A stretch of DNA of 64,000 nucleotides from Bacteroidales bacterium (lineage in GTDB: Bacteria > Bacteroidota > Bacteroidia > Bacteroidales > Muribaculaceae): positions 62,001 through 126,000 of the forward strand of contig SUXJ01000007.1 of assembly GCA_015061005.1 (NCBI GenBank). The letters are read 5' to 3'. The notes under the pieces were generated by a model, which was given only the letters and a program-made list of their open reading frames with translations, was not told the origin of the DNA and searched no databases. The position numbers and the translations under genes were made by a program. Positions 5,648-61,410 of this stretch are shown here, one piece after another (the first letter of the stretch is position 1; every line of letters starts with the position of its first letter).

Positions 5648-5688
5648 TAAATCCCCGAAATTCCTGTATTTGGGATTTCGGGGATTTA
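5648..5688 (-). terminator. Terminator hairpin downstream of panB
   Basis: TAAATCCCCGAAAT...ATTTCGGGGATTTA 14-bp perfect inverted repeat just after the panB stop. Confidence 0.65.
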
Positions 5689-5709
5689 ATAATATGTTGG
5701 AGAAATCGG

Positions 5710-6531
5710 TTAGTATTGCTCAGATTCGTTAGGGAAGTCAACAGCCTTGACATCCGAAACATAATTGCCAATTGCATCAACAATGACATTGCCGAGATCG
5801 GCATAACGACGTAAGAAACGAGGGGAAAAGCCTTGATTAATGCCCAACATATCTTGCATTACGAGCACTTGACCGTCAGTAGCCGAGCCTGCACCGATTC
5901 CTATAGTTGGAATAGAGAGGCTCTCCGTCACTTCGCGAGCAAGGTCAGCCGGAATCTTTTCAAGCACCAACGCAAAACACCCTATTTCTTGAAGCATCAG
6001 AGCATCTTCCTTGAGTTTGGCGGCTTCAGCTTCTGATTTGGCGCGTACATTATACGTGCCGAACTTATTAATACTCTGCGGCGTAAGACCTAAATGTGCC
6101 ATTACAGGAATGCCTGCTGAGAGAATGCGCTCAATGCTTTCGCGCACTTCCGCGCCACCCTCGATTTTCACAGCCTCGGCTCCAGACTCCTTCATAATAC
6201 GAATAGCGTTGGCAAGGGCCTCTTTACTGTTTCCTTGATATGAGCCAAAAGGCATGTCGCAAACAACTAATGCACGCTTCACGCCACGCACAACCGAAGT
6301 GGCATGATAAATCATTTGATCTAAAGTAATAGGCAGCGTTGTGGTGTTACCTGCCATCACGTTTGAGGCCGAATCTCCTACCAGTATGGCATCAACACCG
6401 GCCTGATCCACAAGAGTTGCCATAGAGTAATCATAGGCAGTGAGCATGGCGATTTTCTCACCACGCTCCTTCATTTGTTGCAAACGTATAGTTGTGACTT
6501 TACGTTTGTCGTCAGTAGTGTTTGTCGACAT
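5710..6531 (-). CDS. panB: 3-methyl-2-oxobutanoate hydroxymethyltransferase
   Basis: [48 protein letters not shown] is characteristic of PanB. Confidence 0.96.
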
Positions 6532-16434: not shown

Positions 16435-16446
16435 AACAACATAATT

Positions 16447-16633
16447 GCCTCACTGAGCAGATTGGGAAACTCTTCAAACCTATTTAACTCCCGAGACAAG
16501 CTTAACGAATCAATGGCGGGCTCCATCCCTTCGGGGAAGTGCCTTCGGGCACCAAGGCAGATTACAAAGGTTCGCGAGCACTCAAATCCTGTCATTCGGA
16601 GTTTCTTCCAAATCCTCAGTGAGGCTTTTTATT
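16447..16633 (+). ncRNA. Candidate structured ncRNA, 6S RNA-like (about 187 nt)
   Basis: Perfect 11-bp closing stem GCCTCACTGAG (16447-16457)/CTCAGTGAGGC (16615-16625), extended by GATT/AATC, GGAA/TTCC and ACTC/GAGT; central unpaired region; two C(UUCG)G hairpins; T5 tail. No ORF. Confidence 0.55.
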
Positions 16634-20059: not shown

Positions 20060-20223
20060 TCAGCAATGTTCAATGGAGTTCTTTGACGTATTGGAAAAAA
20101 GAGGGTGAATGATCCGTCCCGGTCATTCCAAACACGCCGCCGGGCAGGCCGCGGTCGGCAAAACTCAAGGTGGCTCCACCGATGCAAGCCCGGGAAACTT
20201 GCGCCGACCGAGCCGCCCTTTTG
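20060..20223 (+). ncRNA. Structured RNA element 1, copy 1 (unidentified; Bacteroidales-1-like possibility)
   Basis: Near-identical core GAGGGTGAATGATCCGTCCCGGTCATTCCAAACACGCCGCCGGG(c/t)AGGCCGCGGTCGGC also at about 56742; 5' hairpin with diverged sequence; compensatory terminal stem GGTGGCTC/GAGCCGCC then TTTTG; GC-rich relative to flanks. Confidence 0.65.
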
Positions 20224-20261
20224 TTCTCACCTTTCAGTTTTCACTTTTCACATATTTTCAC

Positions 20262-20272: not shown

Positions 20273-20365
20273 CGCAGACCGCACCGCAGAAGCCCGGTCA
20301 TGGGCAAAGCGAGAGGGTCGGCTGACATACATAACTGAAAAGCGTTTACTCAACGCTCTTTTTTG
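20273..20365 (+). ncRNA. Small structured RNA element 2, copy 1 (about 90 nt) with intrinsic terminator
   Basis: Block GCAGCGCAGACCGCAC(C/T)GCAGAAGCCCGGTCATGGGCA...AGGGTCGGC(T/A)GACATA conserved with 56972-57064; 3' AGCGTT-tactc-AACGCT-CTTTTTT hairpin. Confidence 0.6.
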
Positions 20366-20395
20366 TTCATCAATAATTATATCATTCAATTATAA

Positions 20396-21949
20396 ATGAA
20401 AAAGTTACTATTAATGATGTCACTGTTGAGCATCATTATTGTGAGTTGCAATAATGGCAACTTTGACGACCCCGAAGACCCGAATAATTCTACGAGCCAA
20501 CAAGATCCGACAAGACTCCCCGAACCTGCCGCAAATGAAATCTACTACACCACAACCGATGGATACCTGATTGATTTCTCAAAAGAAAGTTGGTATAAAA
20601 CCTCAGTTATAGACCATTCCGTAAAAGATGGAACAATTTGTGTCCTGACTTTCGCCGCTAACATAAAAGCAATTATTAAAGAGCAATTTTACGATCAAGA
20701 CGACTTAGAATCAATTATACTGCCTCATGGCATCACAAAAATAGAAGAAAATGCATTTTATGGTTGTAAAAACATGCAGCAAATCAGCATCCCAAATTCG
20801 GTAACTGAAATTGGGTCCTTTGCGTTCTGTGGATGTTCAAGCCTACAAACCATCAGCATCCCAAATTCGGTAACTGAAATTGAGCACTCTGCGTTCAAAA
20901 GATGTTCAAGCCTACAAACCATCAGCATCCCGAATTCGGTAACTGAAATTGGGTACTATGCGTTCGAAGAATGTTCAAGCCTACAAAACATCAGCATCCC
21001 AAATTCGGTAACTATAATTGGGTACTCTGCGTTCTATGGATGTTCAAGCCTACAAACCATCAGCATCCCAAATTCGGTAACTGAAATTTGGGACTCTGCG
21101 TTTGATGGTTGCTCAAGCCTCAAAAATATAATATTACCGGAGTCTTTAACTAAGATTGCTGAGTCTTTATTTAGTGAGTGCTATAGCTTGGAAAGTATTA
21201 CAATTCCCAACTCCGTAACCGAAATTGAAGCAGGCGCCTTTGATGGTTGTTATAGCCTCAAAAATATAACATTACCGGAGTCTTTAACTAAGATTGCTGA
21301 GTCTTTATTTAGTGAGTGCTATAGCTTAGAAAACATCTCAATTCCTAACTCCGTAACCGAAATTGAAGCAGACGCCTTTTTTGGTTGTTTAAGCCTCAAA
21401 AATATAATATTACCGGAGTCTTTAACAAAGATTGGTAAGAAAGCGTTCGGTAGCACCGGTTTGGAAAACATCTCAATTCCTAACTCCGTAACCGAAATTG
21501 AAGTATATGCGTTTTTCGGTTGTACAAATCTCAAAAATATAATATTACCGGAGTCTTTAACAAAGATTGCTGGGTATTTATTTTGTGTGTGCCGTAGCTT
21601 AGAAAACATCTCAATTCCAAACTCCGTAACCGAAATAGAAACAGGCGCCTTTGATGGTTGTTCAAGCCTACAAACCATCAGCATCCCAAATTCGGTAACT
21701 AAAATTGGTGAAGGTGCGTTTGGCAATTGTCAACACTTAAAAAGTTTCTATTGTAAACCGACGACTCCGCCCTATATCTCTGATGCTGGTCCTGGGATAT
21801 TTGACTCTTATGATTACGAATCTACTGCTCATGAGTCATTAGTGATATATGTTCCAACCGAAGCCGTTGAGACATATAAAAGCGCCAGTGGCTGGATCCT
21901 TTATAAAGACAGAATTCAGGGATATGATTTTAGTGCGGATAATAAATAA
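20396..21949 (+). CDS. BspA-like leucine-rich-repeat (LRR_5) lipoprotein
   Basis: Lipobox IIIVSCNN; tandem NSVTEIGxxAFxGCSSLQTISIP repeats. Confidence 0.92.
   Translation: MKKLLLMMSLLSIIIVSCNNGNFDDPEDPNNSTSQQDPTRLPEPAANEIYYTTTDGYLIDFSKESWYKTSVIDHSVKDGTICVLTFAANIKAIIKEQFYDQDDLESIILPHGITKIEENAFYGCKNMQQISIPNSVTEIGSFAFCGCSSLQTISIPNSVTEIEHSAFKRCSSLQTISIPNSVTEIGYYAFEECSSLQNISIPNSVTIIGYSAFYGCSSLQTISIPNSVTEIWDSAFDGCSSLKNIILPESLTKIAESLFSECYSLESITIPNSVTEIEAGAFDGCYSLKNITLPESLTKIAESLFSECYSLENISIPNSVTEIEADAFFGCLSLKNIILPESLTKIGKKAFGSTGLENISIPNSVTEIEVYAFFGCTNLKNIILPESLTKIAGYLFCVCRSLENISIPNSVTEIETGAFDGCSSLQTISIPNSVTKIGEGAFGNCQHLKSFYCKPTTPPYISDAGPGIFDSYDYESTAHESLVIYVPTEAVETYKSASGWILYKDRIQGYDFSADNK
20834..21727 (+). 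repeat. In-gene LRR DNA repeats: 69-bp units (from 20834) then 138/135-bp super-units (from 21110), then reversion to the 69-bp type at 21659
   Basis: Unit starts at 20834, 20903, 20972, 21041, 21110 (69 bp) and 21110, 21248, 21386, 21521, 21659 (138/138/135/138 bp). Confidence 0.9.
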
Positions 21950-56434: not shown

Positions 56435-56508
56435 GCTTCAGTAGCTCAGTTGGTTAGAGCACCTGACTGTTAATCAGGGGGTCGTTGGTTCAAGCCCATC
56501 CTGAAGCG
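56435..56508 (+). tRNA. tRNA-Asn (anticodon GTT)
   Basis: gcttcag...ctgaagc acceptor; loop CTGTTAA. Confidence 0.93.
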
Positions 56509-56537
56509 CAAAATAAACATTCTTTCAAAATAACTTT

Positions 56538-56611
56538 GCTTCAGTAGCTCAGTTGGTTAGAGCACCTGACTGTTAATCAGGGGGTCGTTGGTTCAAGCCC
56601 ATCCTGAAGCG
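56538..56611 (+). tRNA. tRNA-Asn (anticodon GTT), identical second copy
   Basis: Same 74-nt sequence as 56435-56508. Confidence 0.93.
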
Positions 56612-56612
56612 C

Positions 56613-56690: not shown

Positions 56691-56698
56691 TAACTTTG
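56691..56698 (+). promoter_or_regulatory. TAACTTTG -7 element driving RNA element 1, copy 2
   Basis: TAnnTTTG with upstream ACCCTTCG context shared with copy 1. Confidence 0.6.
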
Positions 56699-56700
56699 CA

Positions 56701-56867
56701 ACATCCAAATGTCAAAGTTAGTACATTGAAATGTTGGAACAAGAGGGTGAATGATCCGTCCCGGTCATTCCAAACACGCCGCCGGGTAGGCCGCGGTCGG
56801 CAAAAACTCAAGGGGGACTCTGTCAGTGCAAGCCTGGGAAACTCGCACCGACCGAGTCCCCCTTTTG
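56701..56867 (+). ncRNA. Structured RNA element 1, copy 2
   Basis: Core near-identical to 20100-20160; 5' hairpin CAACAT..AATGT/ACATT..ATGTTG; terminal stem AAGGGGGACTC/GAGTCCCCCTT perfect 11 bp then TTG. Confidence 0.65.
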
Positions 56868-56963
56868 TCATCTCCGTCTCAATCCACTTAAAACACATTA
56901 GCCCCATAAATCACATAAATTTTAAAAATCATATACACTCTTTCCGATTTCACATTTTTTCAC

Positions 56964-56971
56964 TAACTTTG
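56964..56971 (+). promoter_or_regulatory. TAACTTTG -7 element driving RNA element 2, copy 2
   Basis: TAnnTTTG immediately before GCAGCGCAGACCGCA. Confidence 0.55.
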
Positions 56972-57064
56972 CAGCGCAGACCGCACTGCAGAAGCCCGGT
57001 CATGGGCATTGTGGGAGGGTCGGCAGACATAATGATTAGAAAGCGTTTACTCAACGCTCTTTCT
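56972..57064 (+). ncRNA. Small structured RNA element 2, copy 2
   Basis: Conserved with 20273-20365, including the AGCGTTTACTCAACGCTCTTTCTT terminator hairpin. Confidence 0.6.
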
Positions 57065-57180
57065 TGGCTTTTCGAAATCTGGTAAATTTCAATCACAGTC
57101 AGGTTAGATGCAGCGGTAGATGCCTTTGTGGATATGTATAAATATTGATTAACGCGATAGCGCTAATCCGTATCTCATAT

Positions 57181-57279
57181 TCAGCGTGGGCTTCTGCGTT
57201 GCTCGTTCTACTGTGATGGGCATACCAGAGCCTCGAAAAGCGGGACGAGTAACAAGTACAGACTCTCACGCTTTTTTTA
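57181..57279 (+). ncRNA. Candidate rod-shaped RNA (element 3) with intrinsic terminator
   Basis: AGCGTG (57183-57188)/CACGCT (57267-57272), TCTG/CAGA and an 11-bp stem GTTGCTCGTTC (57198-57208)/GGACGAGTAAC (57243-57253); T7 tract. Confidence 0.55.
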
Positions 57280-57321
57280 TTTCTCGCCTAAATCCGGAGC
57301 GTCTATAAGGCAAAACATTCA

Positions 57322-58644
57322 ATGCTTATGCATACCTTAAAACACATCATCACGGCAGCCATGCTCCTATGCACTGCCACAGCCTTCGCCTATGACTTCG
57401 AAGTCAACGGCATCTATTACAACATCATCTCCGACTCCGAAGTCGAAGTAACCAACGGAGAAAATGCCTATGCTGGCGAAATAATAATCCCCGAAACTGT
57501 AACTTATTCCGAATACTCTACTTCGCCCCTTAAAGTCACTGCAATCGGTGGGGCCGCATTTCTTGGTTGCAGCAGCCTTACGTCAATTGAGATCCCTAAT
57601 AGCGTTACCACTATCAAGGGGAATGCATTTGACTTTTGCATCAGTCTTACGTCAATTGACATTCCTAATAGCGTTACCACTATCGAAAAATATGCCTTTT
57701 ATCGATGCAGATCTTTGGCACAAATTGAAATTCCTAATAGCGTTTCCACTATCGGCAATGGAGCATTTAGTCAATGTAGCAGCCTCACGTCAATTGAGAT
57801 CCCTAATAGCGTTACTGCTATCGGTTATTCCGCATTTCTTGGTTGCGGCAGCCTCACGTCAATTGAAATTCCTAATAGCGTTACTGCTATCGGTCATTCC
57901 GCATTTCGTGGTTGCGGCAGCCTCACGTCAATTAAAATTTCCAATAACATAACCTCTCTTCCCAGTGATATTTTTCGTGGATGCAATGGCTTGACATCAA
58001 TTGACATTCCCAATAGCGTAACCAATATTGATGATTATGCATTTGGCGATTGCACTAGCCTTACATCAATTACGATTCCTAATAGCGTAACCATTATCGA
58101 TGTTTTCGCATTTTACGGATGCACTAGCCTTACATCAATTAAGATTCCTAATAGCGTAACCTATATTCATGATGGCGCATTTTACGGATGCACTAACCTG
58201 ACATCAATTGAATTGCCCAATAGCATAACCAAACTTTCTCCTGTTACTTTTGCTAATTGCAGTGGCCTAATCTCAATTAGATTACCCAGCAACATCGGTG
58301 CAATTGGGGATGGAGCTTGCTATAATTGTAGTAATTTACAACACATATACTGTCTACGTGAAGTTCCTGCTGCGTGTTTGATGGAGGATAGAGGATGTTT
58401 TCAAGGCGTCCCGGTTGAAACCTGCGTACTGCACGTGCCGGCAGGCTGTGTTGAGGCGTATCAAGCTGCCGACGGTTGGAAAGACTTCGTAAACATCGTG
58501 GGCGACGCAGCCGGCATCGAAAACGTCACAACCGCTGACGGTCCGGCGGAATACTTCGACCTGCAGGGCAGAAAAGTCACCGCCCCATCCAACGGTATCT
58601 TCATCAAAAAACAAGGCAACTCCACCTCAAAAATCAAACTCTAA
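57322..58644 (+). CDS. BspA-like LRR_5 secreted protein (copy A)
   Basis: Signal peptide; repeated CxSLTSIEIPNSVTTI units; C-terminal EYFDLQGRKVTAPSNGIFIKKQGN. Confidence 0.92.
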   Translation: MLMHTLKHIITAAMLLCTATAFAYDFEVNGIYYNIISDSEVEVTNGENAYAGEIIIPETVTYSEYSTSPLKVTAIGGAAFLGCSSLTSIEIPNSVTTIKGNAFDFCISLTSIDIPNSVTTIEKYAFYRCRSLAQIEIPNSVSTIGNGAFSQCSSLTSIEIPNSVTAIGYSAFLGCGSLTSIEIPNSVTAIGHSAFRGCGSLTSIKISNNITSLPSDIFRGCNGLTSIDIPNSVTNIDDYAFGDCTSLTSITIPNSVTIIDVFAFYGCTSLTSIKIPNSVTYIHDGAFYGCTNLTSIELPNSITKLSPVTFANCSGLISIRLPSNIGAIGDGACYNCSNLQHIYCLREVPAACLMEDRGCFQGVPVETCVLHVPAGCVEAYQAADGWKDFVNIVGDAAGIENVTTADGPAEYFDLQGRKVTAPSNGIFIKKQGNSTSKIKL

Positions 58645-60095
58645 ACAGGTATGAAACTAAAATCATTAGTAGCATCTATAATGTGCTGCATGGCTGCCAC
58701 AGCCTTCGCCCAAGACTTCGAAGTCAACGGCATCTACTACAACATCATCTCCGACTCCGAAGTCGAAGTAACCAACGGAGAAAATGCCTATGCTGGCGAA
58801 ATAATAATCCCCGAAACTGTAACTTATTCCGAATACTCTACTTCGCCCCTTAAAGTCACTGCAATCGGTGGGGCCGCATTTCTTGGTTGCAGCAGCCTTA
58901 CGTCAATTGAGATCCCTAATAGCGTTACCACTATCAAGGGGAATGCATTTGACTTTTGCATCAGTCTTACGTCAATTGACATTCCTAATAGCGTTACCAC
59001 TATCGAAAAATATGCCTTTTATCGATGCAGATCTTTGGCACAAATTGAAATTCCTAATAGCGTTTCCACTATCGGCAATGGAGCATTTAGTCAATGTAGC
59101 AGCCTCACGTCAATTGAGATCCCTAATAGCGTTACTGCTATCGGTTATTCCGCATTTCTTGGTTGCGGCAGCCTCACGTCAATTGAAATTCCTAATAGCG
59201 TTACTGCTATCGGTCATTCCGCATTTCGTGGTTGCGGCAGCCTCACGTCAATTAAAATTTCCAATAACATAACCTCTCTTCCCAGTGATATTTTTCGTGG
59301 ATGCAATGGCTTGACATCAATTGACATTCCCAATAGCGTAACCAATATTGATGATTATGCATTTGGCGATTGCACTAGCCTTACATCAATTACGATTCCT
59401 AATAGCGTAACCATTATCGATGTTTTCGCATTTTACGGATGCACTAGCCTTACATCAATTAAGATTCCTAATAGCGTAACCTATATTCATGATGGCGCAT
59501 TTTACGGATGCACTAACCTGACATCAATTGAATTGCCCAATAGCATAACCAAACTTTCTCCTGTTACTTTTGCTAATTGCAGTGGCCTAATCTCAATTAG
59601 ATTACCCAGCAACATCGGTGCAATTGGGGATGGAGCTTGCTATAATTGTAGTAATTTACAACACATATACTGTCTACGTGAAGTTCCTGCTGCGTGTTTG
59701 ATGGAGGATAGAGGATGTTTTCAAGGCGTCCCGGTTGAAACCTGCGTACTGCACGTGCCGGCAGGCTGTGTTGAGGCGTATCAAGCTGCCGACGGTTGGA
59801 AAGACTTCGTAAACATCGTGGGCGACGCAGCCGGCATCGAAAACGTCACAACCGCTGACGGTCCGGCGGAATACTTCGACCTGCAGGGCAGAAAAGTCAC
59901 CGCCCCATCCAACGGTATCTTCATCAAAAAACAAGGCAACTCCACCTCAAAAATCAAACTCTAAACAGGTATGAAACTAAAATCATTAGTAGCATCTATA
60001 ATGTGCTGCATGGCTGCCACAGCCTTCGCCCAAGACTTCGAAGTCAACGGCATCTACTACAACATCATCTCCGACTCCGAAGTCGAAGTAACCAA
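57418..60095 (+). repeat. Tandem direct duplication, unit 1320 bp (57418-58775 matches 58738-60095)
   Basis: Line-by-line identity at offset 1320 by eye; left boundary at T/C difference 57417/58737, right boundary at 58776/60096. Confidence 0.93.
58651..59964 (+). CDS. BspA-like LRR_5 secreted protein (copy B, chimeric)
   Basis: Signal peptide MKLKSLVASIMCCMAATAFAQ shared with 59971 gene; LRR body identical to 57322 gene. Confidence 0.92.
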   Translation: MKLKSLVASIMCCMAATAFAQDFEVNGIYYNIISDSEVEVTNGENAYAGEIIIPETVTYSEYSTSPLKVTAIGGAAFLGCSSLTSIEIPNSVTTIKGNAFDFCISLTSIDIPNSVTTIEKYAFYRCRSLAQIEIPNSVSTIGNGAFSQCSSLTSIEIPNSVTAIGYSAFLGCGSLTSIEIPNSVTAIGHSAFRGCGSLTSIKISNNITSLPSDIFRGCNGLTSIDIPNSVTNIDDYAFGDCTSLTSITIPNSVTIIDVFAFYGCTSLTSIKIPNSVTYIHDGAFYGCTNLTSIELPNSITKLSPVTFANCSGLISIRLPSNIGAIGDGACYNCSNLQHIYCLREVPAACLMEDRGCFQGVPVETCVLHVPAGCVEAYQAADGWKDFVNIVGDAAGIENVTTADGPAEYFDLQGRKVTAPSNGIFIKKQGNSTSKIKL

Positions 60096-61410
60096 AAATT
60101 CCGATTGGTTCAGTAATGAATATGCCGGCGACATTGTAATTCCTGAAACTGTTACTTATTTCAACAAAACTTACAATGTAACCAAGATCGCAGGTCAAGC
60201 TTTCATGCACAGTGGTATAACCTCAATCACAATCGACAACAATGTTAAAGAAATTGGCGAAAGCGCATTTGCACTGAGTACAAATTTAACAACAGCAAAA
60301 CTTCCAGATGGTATTCAAAGCATTAGCAATGAGATGTTCCATGGTTGCAGCTTAACTGCTATCCATATTCCCGAGAGTGTTACTCAGATTGGTTATTCAG
60401 CATTCTTTGAGTGCGACTTTGAAGAAGTGAATATTCCGAATAGTGTTACTAAAATCGGGTTTAGTGCATTTGATTGTTGTCATAATTTAACTTCGATAAA
60501 CATTCCATGCGGCGTTACGATTATTGAATACAGAACATTTTATAATTGCTCATCTTTGGCATCAGTTACAATTCCTGAAAGCGTTACGGAGATACAGGAC
60601 GAAGCATTCAGTTTTTGTAAAAATTTAACGTCAATATATATTCCAGAGAAAGTTTCAAACATCGGGAATAGAGCCTTTCAATCTTCAGGTTTAGCATCGG
60701 TAACACTGCCTGCGAATTTAAGCGAAATCGGCTCATACACTTTCCACAATACTCCATTTTATAACAATTTACCTGATGGCACCGTATATTTAGGCAAGAT
60801 TCTTTACTCATATAAAGGAGAAATGCCGGAAAACGCCTCAATTTCTATCAAAGAAGGAACGTTCAGTATAAGCGGCAATGCTTTTTACAACTGCATAAAT
60901 TTGACTGCAGTTAACATTCCCAACACCGTTAAAAATATCGGAATGTACGCTTTCGCTGGATGTAGCAACCTGAAATCTGTCGAAATTCCTAATGGCATAA
61001 CCGTTTTAGACGAATGCGTTTTCTCCGGATGCAGCAGCTTGAAAACAATCACTATTCCCGAAAGCGTTACTTCCTTTAATTGGCGAGCAATGGCAAATTG
61101 CTCAGCATTAGAACACATCTATAATCATGCAAAAACTCCTGCGTATTGTTCCGAAGGTGTCTTTGAAAATACTCCGGTCGAAACTTGCGTCCTTCACGTG
61201 CCCACCGGCTGCATCGATGCTTATCGTGCGGAAGAATCCAATTGGAACCAATTTAAAATCATCGTTGATGACGCTGCCGGCATCGAAGACGTTACAACCG
61301 CTGACGGTCCGGCGGAATACTTCGACCTGCAGGGCAGAAAAGTCACCGACCCATCCAACGGCATCTTCATCAAAAAGCAAGGCAACTCCACAGAGAAAGT
61401 ATTGCTATAA
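59971..61410 (+). CDS. BspA-like LRR_5 secreted protein (copy C)
   Basis: LRR_5 repeats; same signal peptide as B; C-terminal EYFDLQGRKVTDPSNGIFIKKQGN. Confidence 0.92.
   Translation: MKLKSLVASIMCCMAATAFAQDFEVNGIYYNIISDSEVEVTKNSDWFSNEYAGDIVIPETVTYFNKTYNVTKIAGQAFMHSGITSITIDNNVKEIGESAFALSTNLTTAKLPDGIQSISNEMFHGCSLTAIHIPESVTQIGYSAFFECDFEEVNIPNSVTKIGFSAFDCCHNLTSINIPCGVTIIEYRTFYNCSSLASVTIPESVTEIQDEAFSFCKNLTSIYIPEKVSNIGNRAFQSSGLASVTLPANLSEIGSYTFHNTPFYNNLPDGTVYLGKILYSYKGEMPENASISIKEGTFSISGNAFYNCINLTAVNIPNTVKNIGMYAFAGCSNLKSVEIPNGITVLDECVFSGCSSLKTITIPESVTSFNWRAMANCSALEHIYNHAKTPAYCSEGVFENTPVETCVLHVPTGCIDAYRAEESNWNQFKIIVDDAAGIEDVTTADGPAEYFDLQGRKVTDPSNGIFIKKQGNSTEKVLL

Follow-up and report, generated by a model that had tools for sequence, protein, structure and literature searches.

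The RNA element E2, a full copy of which lies upstream of BspA-like LRR genes in the 64,000-nt stretch of Muribaculaceae DNA analyzed here (the window), is probably a cis-acting structured 5′ leader of a new class, found in Bacteroidales and acting by transcription attenuation. The comparative analysis gives strong support to E2 as an undescribed structured RNA class, and a regulatory role is well motivated by its predicted promoter, terminator and competing helices. The neighboring repeat E1 appears to stand outside this device.

E1 and E2 in the window

The window contains two arrangements in which E1 and E2 lie directly 5′ of BspA-like LRR genes on the same strand, one at the gene starting at 20396 and the other at the 57322/58651/59971 cluster (Table 1). 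The original prediction of such a cassette upstream of LRR genes at two loci was correct as to the arrangement, but the E2 sequence at 20274–20368 is only a 5′ fragment. Since it lacks all parts after the first hairpin, E2 is whole only at the 57-kb locus of the window. The downstream LRR genes matched PF13306 (LRR_5) with E values of 1e-80 to 1e-147. The genes at 57322 and 58651 arose by recent tandem duplication, with 99–100% identity at a spacing of 1320 bp. A blastn comparison of the LRR genes at the two loci returned no match. Between the 20-kb and 57-kb copies, identity was 83% for E1 and 88% for the common part of E2. The 57-kb module does have a recent duplicate, but on another contig (C10:6612–8437), with 95% identity in E1 and 92% in E2 together with the gene start.

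Table 1. Coordinates of the E1 and E2 elements, their predicted parts and the adjoining LRR genes in the window
Feature	Position	Strand	Basis
E1, second window copy	20060..20225	+	sequence similarity
E2, shortened copy (limited to 5′ module and first hairpin)	20274..20368	+	nhmmer, model positions 1-91 of 313
BspA-like LRR lipoprotein-like gene (517 aa)	20396..21949	+	PF13306 E=2.3e-147
E1 promoter TAACTTTG	56691..56698	+	
E1, sRNA-like repeat with own promoter and terminator	56700..56870	+	18 own-genome copies, 0/60 relatives, z=-3.7
E2 promoter -7 box TAACTTTG	56964..56971	+	TAnnTTTG at 5′ end of 144/153 copies
E2 RNA, full copy, ~305-nt structured leader	56976..57280	+	8 own-genome copies, relatives, fold z=-7.1, covariation
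E2 5′ module (~50 nt), optional	56976..57025	+	some relatives start at model position ~37-57
Anti-terminator 5′ strands H_A 57067-57074, H_B 57078-57083, H_C 57092-57096 (predicted)	57067..57096	+	pair with 57213-57241
Terminator 5′ strands P_T1 57184-57190, P_T2 57199-57208 (predicted)	57184..57208	+	covarying helices 4 and 5; local hairpin -38.8 kcal/mol
Terminator loop, also 3′ strand of H_C, H_B, H_A (predicted)	57213..57241	+	covariation
Terminator 3′ strands P_T2 57243-57252, P_T1 57265-57271, and U-run (predicted)	57243..57280	+	U count
Spacer hairpin, E2 to start codon	57286..57311	+	variable stem around G-rich motif, 129 spacers
BspA-like LRR gene 1 (440 aa)	57322..58644	+	PF13306 E=1.2e-141
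BspA-like LRR gene 2 (437 aa), tandem duplicate	58651..59964	+	PF13306 E=1.1e-141
BspA-like LRR gene 3 (479 aa)	59971..61410	+	PF13306 E=1.3e-80

Distribution of E2

E2 was detected in 37 of the 61 genomes searched (the genome of the window included), with up to 17 matches per genome. Within the family it is widespread, with matches in MAGs and isolates of named Muribaculaceae, and it extends to seven further Bacteroidales families. About 200 distinct copies were collected, and the counts given below refer to subsets of them. Loci were assembled in two sets, the first through their similarity to the window copy and the second through the exact motif AAGCGTTTACTYRACGCTCTTTCTTGRC; being picked by an exact motif, the second set is independent of cargo, yet skewed to one sequence type. 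No credible match to E2 was obtained in Rfam 15, against which the window was searched at the gathering threshold and several copies by E value. The phage and plasmid collections likewise contained no match; on one IMG/VR contig, an E2 and a terminase-like gene occurred together. A literature search for leader RNAs of BspA or of Muribaculaceae returned nothing relevant.

The genome of the window carries 18 copies of E1 and eight of E2, which adjoin at three loci only, and the two elements thus do not form the fixed cassette that had been proposed. Joint movement of RNA and LRR gene as a module, as had been proposed, applies to a single recent duplication, that of the 56.6-kb locus and C10, but not generally. 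The identity of E2 copies was 0.67 within genomes and 0.66 between genomes; the window copy and the one on C10 stood out at 0.92. These comparisons suggest a regulatory element that was dispersed long ago and not a recent transposon burst.

Promoter, terminator and spacer of E2

A TAnnTTTG box was located at the 5′ end of E2 in 144 of 153 copies, and no such promoter box was found in any of the 129 spacers between E2 and the following gene. At the other end, the terminator hairpins alone had calculated energies of -38 to -43 kcal/mol, and at least six U were counted among the last nine nucleotides in 120 of 129 copies. A GC-rich hairpin followed by a U-run, as expected of an intrinsic terminator, thus precedes the start codon. 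Five T in unbroken succession were present at the 3′ end of 70 of 90 copies; approximately 22% are without such a run, and some of them may terminate weakly. The start codon on the same strand was mostly 45–60 nt 3′ of E2 in both sets of loci, and a small hairpin with a variable stem recurred in this spacer (129 spacers). The near-constant distance, the lack of a promoter in the spacer and the terminator agree with the part of the original prediction in which the RNAs control LRR expression, insofar as it concerns E2 as a predicted 5′ leader; for E1, the predicted link to LRR genes was not borne out.

Covariation and predicted alternative folds of E2

In an alignment of 102 sequences, changes on both sides were observed in 29 of the 36 base pairs of the five E2 helices, including 18 of the 19 pairs of the putative anti-terminator. 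The covariation score was 0.518, compared with 0.193 for shuffled alignments (none of 500 reached the observed value) and 0.07–0.11 when the pairing was slid, and the H_A, H_B and H_C pairs ranked first in an unsupervised scan of alignment columns. The H_A–C and P_T helix sets cross each other with linkers of 1–3 nt, so the two folds most likely exclude each other, which would make the anti-terminator pairing mutually exclusive with the terminator. The alternative fold was calculated to be approximately 13 kcal/mol more stable than the terminator fold in 86 of 87 copies.

E2 contains large near-invariant segments (GCGUUUA, UUCUUG and GUAGAUGCC). A rod pairing of the invariant 5′ segment GCGUUUAC..UUCUUG with the 3′ strand of the terminator, proposed by RNAalifold, was dropped, as its pairs were mostly invariant or unsupported by the column count.

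Genes downstream of E2

A BspA-like LRR ORF on the same strand was found within 3.5 kb downstream of 54 of 185 E2 copies. No such ORF was found on the opposite strand, and the single upstream case came from a locus where another E2 lies in the opposite orientation. We counted roughly 15 LRR genes in the 2.1-Mb genome of the window. At that density, the 531 kb scanned should contain fewer than four, an expectation that takes its background from one genome and is set against E2 copies that are not phylogenetically independent. Among the LRR-linked copies, the ORF started within 150 nt in 22 and at 150–1500 nt in 31, in the latter typically behind a smaller ORF. In the genome of the window, a BspA-like LRR gene followed five of the eight E2 copies (hypergeometric probability ~1e-9).

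The link to LRR genes is strong but not exclusive: the 166 first-gene proteins fell into 91 clusters, and BspA-like LRR proteins were the largest class. The remaining cargo proteins were mostly unrelated and often exported. As judged by a hydrophobicity rule and not by a trained signal-peptide predictor, 74% of the first genes in the first set had a signal-peptide-like start, compared with 36% of background ORFs (p = 1e-10), and 43 of 83 looked exported in the second set. Several gene families retained their E2 across genera. One E2-linked lipoprotein was absent from 59 genomes of the family in a search run without a positive control. Apart from related loci, no shared 3′ boundary of the cargo and no shared sequence 5′ of the E2 promoter was found.

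E1 as a dispersed repeat

E1 is approximately 175 nt in size, with 18 copies in the genome of the window and none in the genomes of 60 relatives, ten of them from the same genus. A BspA gene followed E1 in three of the 18 copies, exactly those that also carry E2. The other 15 were adjoined by unrelated genes, mostly housekeeping genes according to names read from their translations. E1 therefore occurs beside LRR genes because it adjoins E2 there. The survey of neighboring genes in related genomes, which had been suggested as a check of the predicted LRR link, spoke against that link for E1 and disclosed a strong and directional one for E2 (five of eight own-genome copies and 54 of 185 overall).

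At six loci, the E1 promoter was located approximately 0.4–0.9 kb 5′ of the E1 body, and E1 formed the 3′ end of a larger element. Five of these loci encoded a full or partial ORF of about 205–210 aa between promoter and body, and the genome contained four full-length copies of this protein together with remnants. The 210-aa ORF had no significant match in Pfam, NCBIfam or PHROGs, and no recognizable transposase that would mark E1 as a transposable element emerged from these searches. The E1 core had no match in viral contigs, and Rfam gave no credible match over E1 at gathering or permissive thresholds. This 62-nt core hardly differs among 17 copies, and the terminator stem varies with compensation between copies. 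Judged by its absence from the 60 relatives, its mostly unrelated neighbors and its near-invariant core, E1 is a species-specific dispersed RNA-bearing repeat outside the E2 device.

Proposed mechanism and alternative explanations

In the proposed mechanism, transcription would begin at the Bacteroidetes-type promoter of E2 itself and cross the leader of approximately 305 nt. The nascent RNA could then adopt either a strong intrinsic terminator, composed of P_T1 and P_T2 plus the U-run, or an anti-terminator in which H_A, H_B and H_C pair with the terminator loop. We infer that the RNA switches between these folds in the cell and that the choice determines whether transcription terminates. Where the terminator is avoided, RNA polymerase would pass the 45–60 nt spacer with its small hairpin and reach one or more genes. 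These often encode a BspA-like LRR protein, in some cases preceded by a small variable ORF, or else another exported or accessory protein. Because the H_C, H_B and H_A strands would emerge ahead of the 3′ strand of the terminator, transcription might read through by default and terminate where a bound factor sequesters the 5′ strands.

E2 might instead be a stand-alone family of trans-acting paralogous sRNAs, positioned upstream of surface genes only incidentally. It has a promoter and a terminator of its own and is present in as many as 17 copies per genome, and FopS provides a precedent in Bacteroides thetaiotaomicron (PMC11697453). A self-terminating sRNA would need neither the near-constant distance of 45–60 nt to a same-strand start codon nor a spacer with a recurring hairpin and without a promoter (0 of 129), nor an association with LRR genes that is downstream and on the same strand (54 of 185, against none opposite and one upstream). 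These features argue against a trans-acting sRNA, which we regard as rather unlikely. It is also unlikely that E2 is one fixed pseudoknotted RNA, such as a ribozyme, a processing site or a protein-binding leader, with constitutive partial termination and no two-state switch. A compact pseudoknot would conserve both helix sets, as their covariation shows them to be, and the near-invariant segments recall tertiary cores; however, linkers of 1–3 nt between a loop pairing of ~19 bp and the terminator stem leave little steric room for both, and the competing strands resemble a terminator/anti-terminator pair.

Another reading makes the RNA mainly a part of a mobile cassette that moves together with the gene. 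The recent duplication of E1, E2 and the LRR gene (window 56.6 kb and C10:6.6 kb, 92–95% identity) is in line with it, as are the sporadic cargo, including the lipoprotein absent from 59 family genomes in the uncontrolled search, and the E2 beside a terminase-like gene on the IMG/VR contig. Such a unit is nevertheless very unlikely, given the lack of common sequence outside promoter and cargo at unrelated loci, the equal identity of E2 within and between genomes, the gene families that keep E2 across genera, and the lack of matches in phage and plasmid collections. Regulation of the LRR genes by E1 is highly improbable: E1 lies just 5′ of E2 at all three shared loci and its core is nearly invariant, but unrelated genes adjoin 15 of its 18 copies, and relatives with the same E2–LRR arrangement have no E1.

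Comparison with known systems

FopS is a 14-member family of paralogous sRNAs in B. thetaiotaomicron that represses susC-type mRNAs, acting in trans through a single-stranded R1 seed and carrying one terminator hairpin (PMC11697453). E2 resembles FopS as a multi-copy structured Bacteroidales RNA with an intrinsic terminator, a sigma-ABfr promoter and a link to surface functions (PMC11697453). Unlike FopS, E2 is approximately 300 nt long, has several covarying helices and lies at a fixed distance ahead of genes. As to a FopS or GibS identity of E1 and E2, no FopS match was found in an Rfam copy that may lack this model, and E2 is set apart by its architecture.

Attenuation leaders and riboswitches share with E2 a promoter, a long structured leader, and a terminator with a competing anti-terminator before the start codon, and second-messenger riboswitches also occur in many copies ahead of different genes. 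E2 differs from both in having no Rfam family match, in its size of ~300 nt, in competing strands that would pair with the terminator loop, and in a cargo that consists of accessory exported proteins and not of a metabolic pathway. Leaders of the UpxY/LoaP type are subject to processive antitermination by NusG paralogues and are found ahead of large operons that include an antiterminator gene of their own. Like E2, they are 5′ leaders of surface-structure genes with control through termination, whereas no antiterminator gene was noticed in a general look at the first genes after E2.

In the mouse gut, Muribaculaceae rank among the most common bacteria, and to our knowledge little is known of how they control their host-facing surface proteins. 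The cargo of E2 is highly diverse, so no common pathway names the signal. We see about even chances that E2 is a class of ~300-nt RNA switches across Bacteroidales through which a common signal gates a dispersed, fast-changing regulon of BspA-like LRR proteins, lipoproteins and small orphan ORFs. With up to 17 copies per genome, E2 would provide a marker of a regulon that can be read from sequence and that predicts an on/off mechanism, and it may lead to a new riboswitch ligand or RNA-binding regulator.

Other RNA Genes and a Gene Duplication in the Window

Two further RNA loci were identified in the window, as shown in the table. LRR genes 1 and 2, the first two BspA-like LRR genes downstream of the full copy of E2, a structured RNA, shared 99–100% identity across most of their length; they represent a very recent tandem duplication with a period of 1320 bp.

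Coordinates of RNA and gene features
Feature	Location	Details
Bacteroidales-1 RNA (suggested 6S RNA)	window 16446–16632	Rfam RF01693, 133 bits
tRNA-Asn(GTT) ×2	window 56435–56612	tandem, identical; adjoin E1 on its upstream side
LRR genes 1 and 2	window 57322–59964
E2 of L311	IMG/VR contig, 5684–5997	terminase-like gene on same contig

Genes Following E2 and the Larger E1 Element

E2 was followed by a small ORF and then a BspA-like LRR gene at loci including L090, L097, L105, L147, L216, L220, and L257. These small ORFs mostly showed no kinship among themselves, and a paired function is possible. A few first genes downstream of E2 matched models associated with phage defence: AbiGi, PDDEXK_4, a methyl-directed restriction enzyme, and PDC-S26. 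At L311, on the IMG/VR contig, the ORF next to E2 on its downstream side was 75 aa long; a gene resembling uracil-DNA glycosylase came after it, and then a BspA-like LRR gene (1017-aa ORF). This locus is possibly a prophage-borne module.

In the source genome, a species-specific element of ~1.1 kb ended 3′ in E1, the sRNA-like repeat, at loci L047, L048, L050, L053, and L054, with decayed versions at L049, L051, L052, and L055. It carried an orphan ORF of ~205 aa without a significant family match. This E1-ended element may be an unrecognised mobile element.
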